DNA from: Thermoleophilia bacterium
GTDB taxonomy: Bacteria; Actinomycetota; Thermoleophilia; Solirubrobacterales; 70-9
Reading direction: 5' to 3'
Assembly (NCBI GenBank): GCA_016650125.1
Contig: JAENWT010000005.1
Span: forward strand, 1-64,000
Length of the DNA: 64,000 nucleotides
Translations under genes and position numbers: made by a program
Part shown: piece by piece, positions 1 through 3,438 of the stretch
Layout of the letters: each line of letters opens with the position of its first letter
How positions within the stretch are numbered: position 1 is the stretch's first letter
The notes under the pieces: generated by a model
Database searches by the model: none
Told to the model about the DNA's origin: nothing
What the model saw: only the letters and a program-made list of their open reading frames with translations

Positions 1-364
1 CGAGACCCAGGCAGGACGCCAAATCCGGAACTGGGTCGGCTAGGGACCCAGGCTCAGGTCGTAACCGACCCAGTTCGCAGAAGCTGACCCCTGCGATGTC
101 GCAGGCGACCTGTCACTGCAGCAAACACCGGATTTGCCCGAAGGCAAATTCGGTGCCTAATTCATCTGCGATGTCGCAGAGCACCGCCCACTGCAGCAAA
201 CACAGGTTTTGTCCGAAGACAAAACCTGTGCCTAATTCAAAGCTGTGACGGCGGAGAGAGGGCAAAAACTATGAGCTTGTTCTCCTGGTTCCGATTTTTG
301 CCCGCCCTCGCGGTAGTCCGCACTAGGGGACCCCCACCCCCGCGGTAGACCGGCCCCAGTGCAA
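1..364. other. Non-coding structured intergenic region
   Basis: I find no convincing gene here. The stretch is rich in inverted repeats. An 11-bp pair lies at 29-39 and 65-75, two covarying hairpins lie inside the tandem repeats at 91-240, and a 9-bp pair (GGGCAAAAA and its complement) lies at 260-268 and 295-303. It sits downstream of rpsG, where fusA would be expected in the classic str operon, and it is cut off from rpsG by the terminator at 365-392. It could be a non-coding RNA locus, a REP-like element or terminators of a gene to the left. Confidence 0.5.
91..240. repeat. Two tandem 75-bp repeats with covarying hairpins
   Basis: Unit 1 is 91-165 and unit 2 is 166-240. Each starts with the self-complementary CTGCGATGTCGCAG, continues through ACTGCAGCAAACAC, forms a 13-bp hairpin with a CGAA loop (126-155 and 201-230) and ends with CCTAATTCA. 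The stems differ at three paired positions and every change is compensated: C-G to A-T, A-T to T-A and C-G to T-A. A fourth pair is G-T in unit 1 and G-C in unit 2. Such covariation means that structure, not sequence, is conserved. The strand of function is unknown. Confidence 0.8.
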
Positions 365-392
365 AGAAAAAGGCGCCCGATGGGCGCCTTTC
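365..392 (-). terminator. Rho-independent terminator of rpsL-rpsG
   Basis: On the minus strand a 9-bp stem (370-378 with 382-390, loop of three) is followed by TTTTTCTTT. It lies 22 bases after the rpsG stop. Transcription of the rpsL-rpsG unit therefore probably ends here instead of continuing into fusA. Confidence 0.85.
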
Positions 393-413
393 AAAGTTCG
401 TAAGCCAGAGCGA

Positions 414-884
414 CTACCAGCGGTAGTGCGCGAAGGCTTTATTCGCCTGAGCCATACGGAAGATGTCGTCCTTGCGCTTCCAGGCGGAACCCTGCTGCTT
501 CGTCGCATCTAGGATCTCGTTGGCGAGTCTTTCCGACATCGCGTACTCGTTGCGGTTGCGGGCGAATTCGACAACCCAGCGAACGGCGAGCGTCTTGGCG
601 CGGCGGGCCGGGACTTCGACCGGCACCTGGTAGGTGGCGCCGCCGACTCGGCGGGACCGGACTTCAAGAGCGGGTGTCAACTGCTTAATCGCCTCTTCGA
701 GGGTCTCGACGGCGTCTTCACCGGAGCGCTCGGCGACGATGGCGAGCGCGTCATACGTGATGCGCTCGGCGGTCGACTTCTTGCCGTGGAGCATGACCTT
801 ATTGATCATCTGCTGGACCAGACGGCTGCGGTACTTGGTATCGGCCTCTACCGGCCGAATCGTTGCTGCGGAACGGCGTGCCAT
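414..884 (-). CDS. rpsG: 30S ribosomal protein uS7
   Basis: 156 residues, the usual uS7 length. It nucleates folding of the 3' domain of 16S rRNA and lines the mRNA exit/E-site region of the 30S subunit. The family signature is visible as DTKYRSRLVQQMINKVMLHG near the N-terminus, the RRVGGATYQVPVEV loop near residue 80 and a C-terminal end in AHYRW. The ATG overlaps the rpsL stop by one base (ATGA), so the two are translationally coupled. A strong terminator follows, so fusA is not directly co-transcribed. Confidence 0.98.
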   Translation of the reverse strand: MARRSAATIRPVEADTKYRSRLVQQMINKVMLHGKKSTAERITYDALAIVAERSGEDAVETLEEAIKQLTPALEVRSRRVGGATYQVPVEVPARRAKTLAVRWVVEFARNRNEYAMSERLANEILDATKQQGSAWKRKDDIFRMAQANKAFAHYRW

Positions 885-1279
885 CAGCTCGCCTTGACTC
901 CGTAGCGGGAGCGCGCCTGCTTGCGGTCGGAGACTCCGGCCGCGTCGAGCGTGCCGCGCACGACCTTGTAACGAACACCGGGAAGATCCTTGACTCGACC
1001 GCCCCTGATCAGGACGACGGAGTGCTCCTGGAGATTGTGTCCCTCTCCGGGGATGTAAGCCGTTACTTCCATGCCGTGGGCCAAGCGAACTCGCGCAATC
1101 TTCCGGAGAGCCGAGTTCGGCTTCTTCGGGGTGACGGTCGCAACACGGGTGCAGACGCCACGCCTCTGGGGAGCGGCGACTTTCTTCTTGTTGCCCTGCC
1201 CTGACTTGAGACCAGGGGTAGTGACCTTCTTCTTGGGCCTCTTGCGACCCTTGCGTACAAGTTGATTGGTATTAGGCAC
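884..1279 (-). CDS. rpsL: 30S ribosomal protein uS12
   Basis: 131 residues from a GTG start. uS12 sits at the decoding centre and affects accuracy and streptomycin response. The protein reads [11 protein letters not shown] at the start, then [16 protein letters not shown] and [12 protein letters not shown]. The two lysines that are altered in classical streptomycin-resistant mutants are present. The frame stays open for 19 codons upstream to an ATG at 1336, but alignment to the family start ([12 protein letters not shown] in most bacteria) fixes the GTG at 1279. I see no clear Shine-Dalgarno. The 63-bp gap to the divergent gene at 1343 should hold both promoters. Confidence 0.97.
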
Positions 1280-1342
1280 GGCGGCGAATACTACAGGAAC
1301 TGCCAGGACTCGCTGCCCCGGCCAAATCGAGATCATTACGTG

Positions 1343-1858
1343 ATGGGGAAAAAGCCACTACTCGCCGTCGACGTAGACGGGGTCATCAGCCTTTTTGGCT
1401 TTGAGCAAGCTCCGTCCGGGCCTGGATTCCGGTTTGAGTTGATCGACGGTACTCCGCACTTCATCTCGGTCGAGGCCGGCAAGCGGCTGAACCGGCTCAG
1501 TGACTGCTTCGAGCTGGTCTGGGCGACCGGCTGGCAGGATCGGGCGAACGACCACCTGCCGACGATCACCGGGATCGGCCCGCTGCCCGTGATCGAGTTC
1601 GACCGGGGCGGCCCCGTGCCGGAACGCTTCGGCTCGGCCCACTGGAAGCTGGCGCCGCTCGATGCCTACGCCAATGATCGCGCAATCGCCTGGATCGACG
1701 ATTCCTTCGACGAAAGCTGCCTTGAATGGGCCCGGGTGCGGGAGGCCGCCGGTCACCCCACCCTGCTTGTCCCGACCGAACCGCAGATCGGCCTCGAAGA
1801 AGCGCACGTGGCGACGCTGGAAATCTGGGTTGCGGACCTCGAGGCAAGCTACACTTGA
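1343..1858 (+). CDS. HAD-like hydrolase-fold protein
   Basis: 171 residues. The N-terminus [13 protein letters not shown] carries the HAD motif I (DxDG), and [11 protein letters not shown] is the motif II-like segment, here with T/G instead of a classic serine. [10 protein letters not shown] near residue 115 gives the acidic motif IV. This arrangement resembles the HAD domain attached to 'Swiss Army Knife' RNA-repair proteins and related stand-alone actinobacterial proteins. A phosphohydrolase role is plausible but the substrate is unknown. The ATG at 1343 is preferred over an upstream in-frame start at 1262, which would overlap rpsL. The gene sits alone between rpsL and a small membrane-protein gene four bases downstream. 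Confidence 0.75.
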
Positions 1859-1861
1859 AAC

Positions 1862-2164
1862 GTGGAAGGTTTGTGGCCATTTCTATTTCTGCTGGTCATC
1901 CTGAAGGTTCCGATCATCGGGACGATCTACCTGCTCTGGTGGGCGGCACAGCCGCCCGAGGTCGAGACCGCGGAAGACGAAGGCAGCAGTGACGACCGTG
2001 GACGCCGCCACCCGATGCCGGGATTCCCGAGGGGACCGCGCCGCGATCCGCATGGTGGCGGGGCCAGGCCGGTCGCCGACCCCCCGCACGAGGGCCGGAT
2101 CCGTCAGCCGGAGCCGACGCGCACCTTCGACCGCTCGCGCTCGCGCGACATCGTCCGCAAGTAA
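1862..2164 (+). CDS. Small single-pass membrane protein, unknown
   Basis: 100 residues from a GTG start three bases after the upstream stop, so probably co-transcribed with the HAD gene. Residues 5-28 form one hydrophobic helix (WPFLFLLVILKVPIIGTIYLLWW). The rest is a charged, proline- and arginine-rich tail ending in SRSRDIVRK, without cysteines. I do not recognise a family. Its 3' end overlaps the convergent monooxygenase gene by 61 bases. The coherent membrane segment followed by a basic tail, and the tight spacing, make me believe it is a gene and not a shadow. Confidence 0.6.
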   Translation: MEGLWPFLFLLVILKVPIIGTIYLLWWAAQPPEVETAEDEGSSDDRGRRHPMPGFPRGPRRDPHGGGARPVADPPHEGRIRQPEPTRTFDRSRSRDIVRK

Positions 2165-3438
2165 GGGTCGAAGTCGACTTGAATCGTGTGGCGCTTCGAA
2201 GTGACGTAGCGCCGCTTCATCGCTGACTGTTCCCGGGCGACTTCGCGGGCCATGGTCGCGCGGTCGGGCAATGTGCACTCGTCGTTGATCAGTTCGGCGA
2301 TCCACTCGGACTGAGCCTCAGCCAGCGGCATGATCGCCCCCAGCGGCTGGATCAGCCCGATGAAGTAGAGGCCCGGATGGTCGATCGAGGCGACCCGGTG
2401 GTACAGGTTCACCTGGTTGTCCTGTGTGCTGATCACGTCGTTGTCGAAGAACGGGAAGGTGATGCGGTAGCCGGTGCAGTAGATGACCAGATCGGCCTTT
2501 TCGCGAGTGCCATCGGTGAATACGACCGAATCGCCGTCGAGACGCTCGATGTTCGGCTTGACCTTGATGTCACCGTGTCCGAGGCGGCCGATCAGGTCAC
2601 CGGAGACGGTCGGATGGGCATGCAGCGGCTGGTGGTCGGGTTTCGGCAGTCCGTAGTCCTCGAGCTTGCCGACCGACAGCCGCAGGGCGAGGCGCAGGAA
2701 GGCGCTCTGGACCGCCAGCGGCGCCTTGGTCATGAGCCCGGTGGTCGCCTTGTCGCTGGGGATGCCGCCGAGATACTTGGGCACGATCCAGGCCCCGCGG
2801 CGCATCGCGAGGAAGGTTTTCTCCGCGGTCCGCGACGCCTCGACCGCGATGTCGGTCGCCGAGTTGCCGATGCCGAGCACGACGACCCGCTTGCCCTCCA
2901 AGATCTCCGGAGTCCGGTAGTCGTGGGCGTGCATCTGGGTTCCTTCGAAAGTGTCCGACCCGGGGAAGGCCGGCTCCGGCCAACGGGCGTCCCAATGGTG
3001 GCCGTTGCAGACGAGGACGTCGGTGTAGTCCCGCGTCTCGCTCTTCCCTTTCGCATCGTTGAAGGTGACCTGCCAGCCGCTGCCGGCGACCGGGTCGACG
3101 CTGGTCACTTCGGTGTTGAAGTCGATCCTTTCGCGCAGCCCGAAATGGTCGGCGTAATTATCGAAATACTCGGCGATCTGGAAATGGTCCGGATAGTCCG
3201 GATACTCGTCCGGCATCGGGTACGCGGCGTAGGACATCATCTGCCGCGAAGTGTTGATGTGCAGGGACTTGTACGCCGCCGACATGCCGTTATCGTTCTC
3301 GTAGCGCCAGTTGCCGCCGATCGTCGAGCCCTTTTCGAAGCAGTCGAAATCGATTCCTTTCGCCAGCAGCTTCTGGCAGGCAGTGATGCCCGAAGAGCCC
3401 GCCCCAATCACGCAAACCCGTTTGTCCGCATCGCTCAT
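2104..3438 (-). CDS. Flavin-containing monooxygenase (FMO/BVMO type)
   Basis: 444 residues. The FAD-binding Rossmann motif is GAGSSG (residues 12-17), the FMO fingerprint FPGSDTFEGTQMHAHDYR lies around residue 165, and the NADP-binding motif GIGNSATDIA around residue 193. This fits class B single-component flavoprotein monooxygenases, which oxygenate soft nucleophiles or ketones with NADPH and oxygen in the cytosol. Length and motif order are normal for a microbial FMO. The substrate cannot be read from sequence. It is a lone gene on the minus strand, followed by the convergent small membrane-protein gene, and has no evident link to the neighbouring polysaccharide genes. Confidence 0.9.
   Translation of the reverse strand: MSDADKRVCVIGAGSSGITACQKLLAKGIDFDCFEKGSTIGGNWRYENDNGMSAAYKSLHINTSRQMMSYAAYPMPDEYPDYPDHFQIAEYFDNYADHFGLRERIDFNTEVTSVDPVAGSGWQVTFNDAKGKSETRDYTDVLVCNGHHWDARWPEPAFPGSDTFEGTQMHAHDYRTPEILEGKRVVVLGIGNSATDIAVEASRTAEKTFLAMRRGAWIVPKYLGGIPSDKATTGLMTKAPLAVQSAFLRLALRLSVGKLEDYGLPKPDHQPLHAHPTVSGDLIGRLGHGDIKVKPNIERLDGDSVVFTDGTREKADLVIYCTGYRITFPFFDNDVISTQDNQVNLYHRVASIDHPGLYFIGLIQPLGAIMPLAEAQSEWIAELINDECTLPDRATMAREVAREQSAMKRRYVTSKRHTIQVDFDPYLRTMSRERERSKVRVGSG

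Follow-up and report, generated by a model that had tools for sequence, protein, structure and literature searches.

A probable lineage-specific family of REP/BIME-like extragenic hairpins, associated with IS30 elements, in a Thermoleophilia genome

Two tandem 75-bp units at the start of a Thermoleophilia contig are most probably members of a lineage-specific, REP/BIME-like family of extragenic hairpins that has no recognisable RAYT and that has been recombined at short blocks. Copies are dispersed in the genome, mosaic in structure and extragenic; their stems covary and they are associated with IS30 elements. The literature searched contains no report of REP/BIME-like repeats in this lineage, to which such a system is added here. 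As the system appears to be without the enzyme thought to make such repeats, REP-like spread in the absence of a RAYT becomes a testable question. The window analysed is positions 1 to 64,000 (64,000 nt) of contig JAENWT010000005.1.

The tandem units and their surroundings

Two 75-bp units, each keeping a 13-bp hairpin with a CGAA loop, had been described from the sequence of the window. TRF finds a tandem repeat at 91-239 (period 75, two copies), and folding and the arm coordinates bear out the description, with arms at 126-138/143-155 in unit 1 and, perfectly matched, at 201-213/218-230 in unit 2. The three stem pairs said to have changed on both sides are confirmed: C-G at 129/152 in unit 1 versus A-T at 204/227 in unit 2, A-T at 132/149 versus T-A at 207/224, and C-G at 137/144 versus T-A at 212/219. 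A fourth pair, not mentioned earlier, is a G.T wobble at 131/150 in unit 1 and G-C at 206/225 in unit 2. The flanking blocks are also identical in both units, as stated: CTGCGATGTCGCAG (91-104, 166-179), ACTGCAGCAAAC (115-126, 190-201) and CCTAATTCA (156-164, 231-239).

The fold z-scores of the two units are -4.8 and -5.3, with none of 200 shuffles as good, and that of 20-260 is -8.3. Chance hairpins are ruled out by these z-scores against shuffles and by covariation across copies. The array lies downstream of the stop codon of a gene that we take, from its sequence, to be rpsG, encoding ribosomal protein S7, and beyond an ordinary GC hairpin near 369-391 (Table 1). Window position 1 is also the first base of the contig, which thus starts within the repeat.

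The two window hairpins represent two alleles, of classes a and d, in a family found across the genome, and the three changes therefore need not have arisen at this locus. The unit 2 hairpin is identical to one at C8:132664-132693 (C denotes contigs of the same genome).

Table 1. Features of the array at the start of the window and related features elsewhere in the genome
Feature	Position	Strand	Details
Module X hairpin	28..76	+	15-bp arms, 19-nt loop; one of eight copies in intergenic parts of fetched stretches
Unit 1	91..165	+	head A 91-104; spacer with CACTGCAGCAAAC 114-126; class-a hairpin 126-155; tail CCTAATTCA 156-164
Unit 2	166..240	+	head A 166-179; spacer with CACTGCAGCAAAC 189-201; class-d hairpin 201-230; tail 231-239
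Junction J1	241..259	+	AGCTGTGACGGCGGAGAGA
Hairpin Q	260..303	+	GGGCAAAAA...TTTTTGCCC
End motif	304..316	+	GCCCTCGCGGTAG; closes full elements of 164-171 bp
Solitary second end-motif copy	336..351	+	CGCGGTAG at 341-348
Flanking gene	414..884	-	presumably ribosomal protein S7
IS30 element	L246 1461-2764 (C2)		in loop of 15-bp X hairpin
Contig ends in or near hairpin arrays or their IS30 copies	window 1; C1, C6, C8, C13, C16, C17, C20, C26, C27, C37		

No known RNA family had come to mind for the units, and Rfam agrees: positions 1-3000 of the window give only sub-threshold matches and ten fetched stretches none, so membership of an Rfam family is excluded for want of a match above the gathering score. 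One sub-threshold match (26.4 of 50 bits, 361-393) falls at the GC hairpin downstream of rpsG, which is taken as a terminator. The hairpins of the units themselves are not intrinsic terminators; neither is followed by a T-run, both units ending in CCTAATTCA, and a terminator scan of 1-900 returned a single terminator-like match, at chance level. A relation to attC-like sites was also rejected, as the units do not fit the R-box motifs (compared by eye).

Copies and modular anatomy

A lack of further copies would have told against the original prediction, and copies are many. A blastn search with 91-240 gives 38 matches in the genome at E up to 1, and a covariance model built from 29 units, leaving out one further nhmmer match to a broken unit, gives 54 at E up to 0.1. 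In 52 fetched stretches of the genome there are 43 covariance-model matches at E up to 1e-4; subtraction of two reverse-strand echoes leaves 41 units, among which 34 distinct hairpin sequences occur.

Nineteen full elements of 164-171 bp can be aligned, three further candidates, tandem or shortened, having been excluded. Each begins with a head palindrome, A (TGCGATGTCGCAG) or B (GTACCGCTCACGGGTAGG), which is followed by a spacer, the main hairpin and CCTTATGCA, then by a junction (J1 or J2), hairpin Q and finally CGCGGTAG. Consensus folding of the 19-element alignment with RNAalifold keeps Q and, in part, the main hairpin.

The kit from which the elements are assembled has two types each of head, spacer and junction, at least five hairpin classes and the second hairpin, and its parts occur in many combinations. 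Head A is present in 17 of the 41 units, head B in 19 and neither in five. With module classes assigned by simple rules, which leave two units without a hairpin class, classes a, b and d occur with head A and classes a, b, c, d and e with head B. Similar blocks are found at unrelated loci, e.g. one of 231 bp (95% identity) and one of 208 bp (96%). Between the genes of the fetched stretches there are 73 hairpins, in eleven families of two or more plus 10 singletons, compared with one hairpin in mononucleotide shuffles, a density biased by the choice of stretches that hold repeats. Another of the genome's hairpin families, that of TTCTTTGCCGCG, has TATAT-like loops.

Stem pairing across copies

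In a MAFFT alignment of 29 units made without reference to structure, 96.2% of stem cells are paired and double changes are seen in 8 of the 13 pairs. There are 43 double-changed cells against 14.1 in shuffles, a number reached by none of 500 shuffles; eight double-changed pairs were reached by 13 of 500. In a structure-fitted alignment of the 43 matches, 97.4% of the 536 cells pair, 10 of the 13 pairs show double changes and 91 cells are double-changed, against 25.1 in shuffles, which ignore relatedness and of which 0 of 500 were as high. When the partner column is slid by one to three positions, pairing falls to 57% or less in both alignments.

The three pairs that distinguish the window units are not coupled: one unit combines A-T at both the first and the second with T-A at the third, and two units have C-G at the first together with T-A at the third. 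The pairs occur in separate combinations and thus changed as separate events.

Non-standard cells on the unit strand comprise 26 G.T/T.G versus five A.C/C.A and nine other, which are too few independent events; 10 of the 26 wobbles lie at one column pair, mostly as a single inherited G.T, and class e, whose hairpins fit the model register poorly, accounts for seven. The excess weakly favours pairing as a single strand, on one strand, and is only suggestive. The original prediction invoked selection on RNA or on a DNA cruciform; selection for stem pairing is supported by the paired fraction and the double changes, and as between the two structures the wobbles lean weakly towards a single strand.

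Position relative to genes

With genes called by a simple home-made gene finder, 33 of the 41 units have a gene on both sides and are spread over 30 gaps, of which 16 are tandem, 11 convergent and three divergent; for the other eight a gene is missing on one side within the stretch. Background gaps in a 400-kb sample are 65 tandem, 25 convergent and 30 divergent (30/120), and the shortage of divergent gaps and the surplus of convergent ones both fall short of significance (Fisher p = 0.09 each). Overlap with a predicted gene is confined to three units, at or near the gene end. Units occur in both orientations relative to flanking genes. Adjacent units have the same orientation on C5, C8, C26 and C32, and units of opposite orientation share a single gap, on C4.

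Of the 82 contig ends, at least 11 fall within or close to a hairpin array or one of its IS30 copies, and the repeats seem to break the assembly. For genome work, they would explain assembly breaks at such places.

IS30 elements and mobilisation enzymes

The genome has five matches to an IS30 transposase (family NF033563, E 6.6e-69; Pfam rve), and all five are next to or inside hairpin modules. Contig ends truncate several of the IS copies, leaving only one side visible. Three copies, on C8, C26 and C1, border on Q at an identical position, GAGAGA/GGGCAAAA, and the same IS end, likewise abutting Q, is found at the start of C17 and C27. The 3′ border of J1, GAGAGA/GGG, is the IS30 insertion point in other copies, and a 29-bp piece at C1:219,444 matches the joint. 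The C2 copy (67% identical, with one stop) is in the loop of an X hairpin, and when one of two GTT copies is removed, an X hairpin of roughly normal size is restored. On one side this X hairpin is followed by eight T, and is terminator-like. On C13 the copy (57%) separates the foot of a class-b hairpin from the rest of the tail and Q. The best reading is that IS30 elements use hairpin modules as target sites; such use of REP-like hairpins by IS30 is what these copies display.

A search for a RAYT-type transposase elsewhere in the genome had been proposed. Run with the Y1 transposase model (PF01797), it gave no match in the draft, which is 95.4% complete. The same model matches at E <= 0.001 in 6 of 41 genomes, and in 1 of 17 congeners.

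Origin and maintenance of the repeats

In the proposed scheme, copies and pieces would have spread through intergenic regions, and recombination at short conserved blocks would have led to tandem units such as 91-240 and to chains with other hairpin modules. Stem pairing may be kept because recognition or use of the hairpin takes place on its folded single strand, most likely when it is copied or mobilised, as in REPs; secondarily, hairpins may be tolerated or used in 3′-untranslated RNA. Against this scheme, the Y1 transposase, the known REP mobiliser, is missing from the draft, the 3′ bias is not significant, and ordinary recombination without mobilisation could yield the mosaic structure; in addition, the alignment giving double changes in 10 of 13 pairs was fitted to structure and judged by shuffles that take no account of relatedness. 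It is unlikely, but worth considering, that the hairpins are spread and shuffled at conserved joints by non-HUH/RAYT machinery, comprise several distinct hairpin families in one genome, and have different IS30s specialised to the base of Q, the loop of X and the foot of the class-b hairpin.

The hairpins could instead act in transcripts, as 3′ UTR stabilisers, terminators or processing sites, with pairing kept by selection on RNA. We consider this unlikely. The wobble excess is what is expected of a structure read on the unit strand, folding is strong, and divergent gaps are few (3/30 against a background of 30/120). However, the wobbles are concentrated at one largely inherited column pair and in the poorly fitting class e, and the same bias would come from recognition of single-stranded DNA; units are oriented both ways relative to genes, and the T-runs and terminator signal of a terminator are wanting. 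It is improbable that mutational upkeep alone, by template switching or inter-arm conversion, keeps the palindromes perfect without selection. Many arms are indeed perfect, and relatives frequently carry unrelated long hairpins, but class a retains a G.T wobble (found at that pair in 10 of 41 units), class b retains bulges, and mismatches also remain, all of which would have been corrected, and short blocks outside the arms are conserved too. Very improbable is a MITE origin, i.e. non-autonomous relatives of the resident IS30 elements moved by their transposase. IS30 is the transposase seen with the modules in 5/5 matches; yet, by eye, IS30 ends (GGTGG...CAACGCAACA) differ from repeat ends, at Q and X the IS sits inside the repeat, the 3-bp GTT duplication at X being of the kind made at target sites, and most repeats have no IS sequence.

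Comparison with known repeat systems

The comparisons here rest on excerpts of the cited papers. The REP/BIME-like family resembles REPs, BIMEs and REPINs in its short extragenic palindromes, numerous here at 41 units, in mosaic and tandem clusters and in species-specific sets (PMC2817692, PMC3733652, PMC3116915). Compensatory stem changes and tandem clusters are described for REPINs (PMC3116915), REPs lie mostly between unidirectional and convergent genes (PMC3733652), and the present repeats likewise have compensatory changes, are mostly outside divergent gaps and are insertion-sequence targets. As in BIMEs, repeat modules form a mosaic of combinatorial parts and shared blocks. The repeat differs from REP/BIME in being a composite of ~165 bp made of several different hairpins, and from BIMEs in that tandem units point the same way and do not alternate. 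GTAG, the tag at the foot of the REP palindrome, occurs, by eye, in head B and the end motif and not directly before the main hairpin, which may be a further difference.

RAYTs are regarded as REP mobilisers (PMC2817692) and TnpA-REP recognises REPs (PMC8266576), whereas no RAYT was found in this draft genome. CGTC-REPs (PMC3733652) are likewise REP-like and without a dedicated transposase, but the composite structure sets the present repeats apart. The REP-targeting ISs listed in the excerpt of PMC1525189 are from the IS3, IS110, IS4, IS256 and IS5 families, IS30 not being among them; the likeness is that every detectable IS copy is in a repeat, with repeated insertion at an exact point, the base of Q. 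The best reading is that the system would work like REP/BIME. Membership of the RAYT-mobilised REPs is not claimed, because a search for their transposase gave no match and the units do not alternate in orientation as in BIMEs.

Distribution and other hairpins

The family has so far been found only in this genome, weak partial matches aside. Among 41 genomes (this one and 40 relatives, 17 of them congeneric) this one has 46 matches, and G033 is the sole relative with any, three weak ones to the hairpin only. Order-wide, in 232 genomes including this one and under stricter filters, there is one other weak match, in G111; in both G033 and G111 the hairpin has unrelated flanks. The element is absent from relatives' rpsG loci, of which one showed 114 bases and another a single base downstream. 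A contig pattern scan for spread to other genomes, which may omit the genome's own record, gave two matches, after neither of which such a hairpin follows, as judged by eye, and a phage or plasmid origin was rejected as there was no blastn match.

Long hairpins per 400 kb number 23 in this genome, 21 in G009, 13 in G020 and 34 in G028, with 1-3 in shuffles. Hairpin richness as such is thus shared with relatives; what sets this genome apart is the sequences of its repeats. Some relatives' rpsG loci carry other long hairpins, and these unrelated intergenic hairpins downstream of rpsG (loci L140, L143, L138 and L141) include several with TATAT-like loops. A TGGGTCGG...CCGACCCA-like hairpin, comparable to that at window 28-76, recurs in the congener G009 (L188, L185), and the X module may therefore be older than the units.
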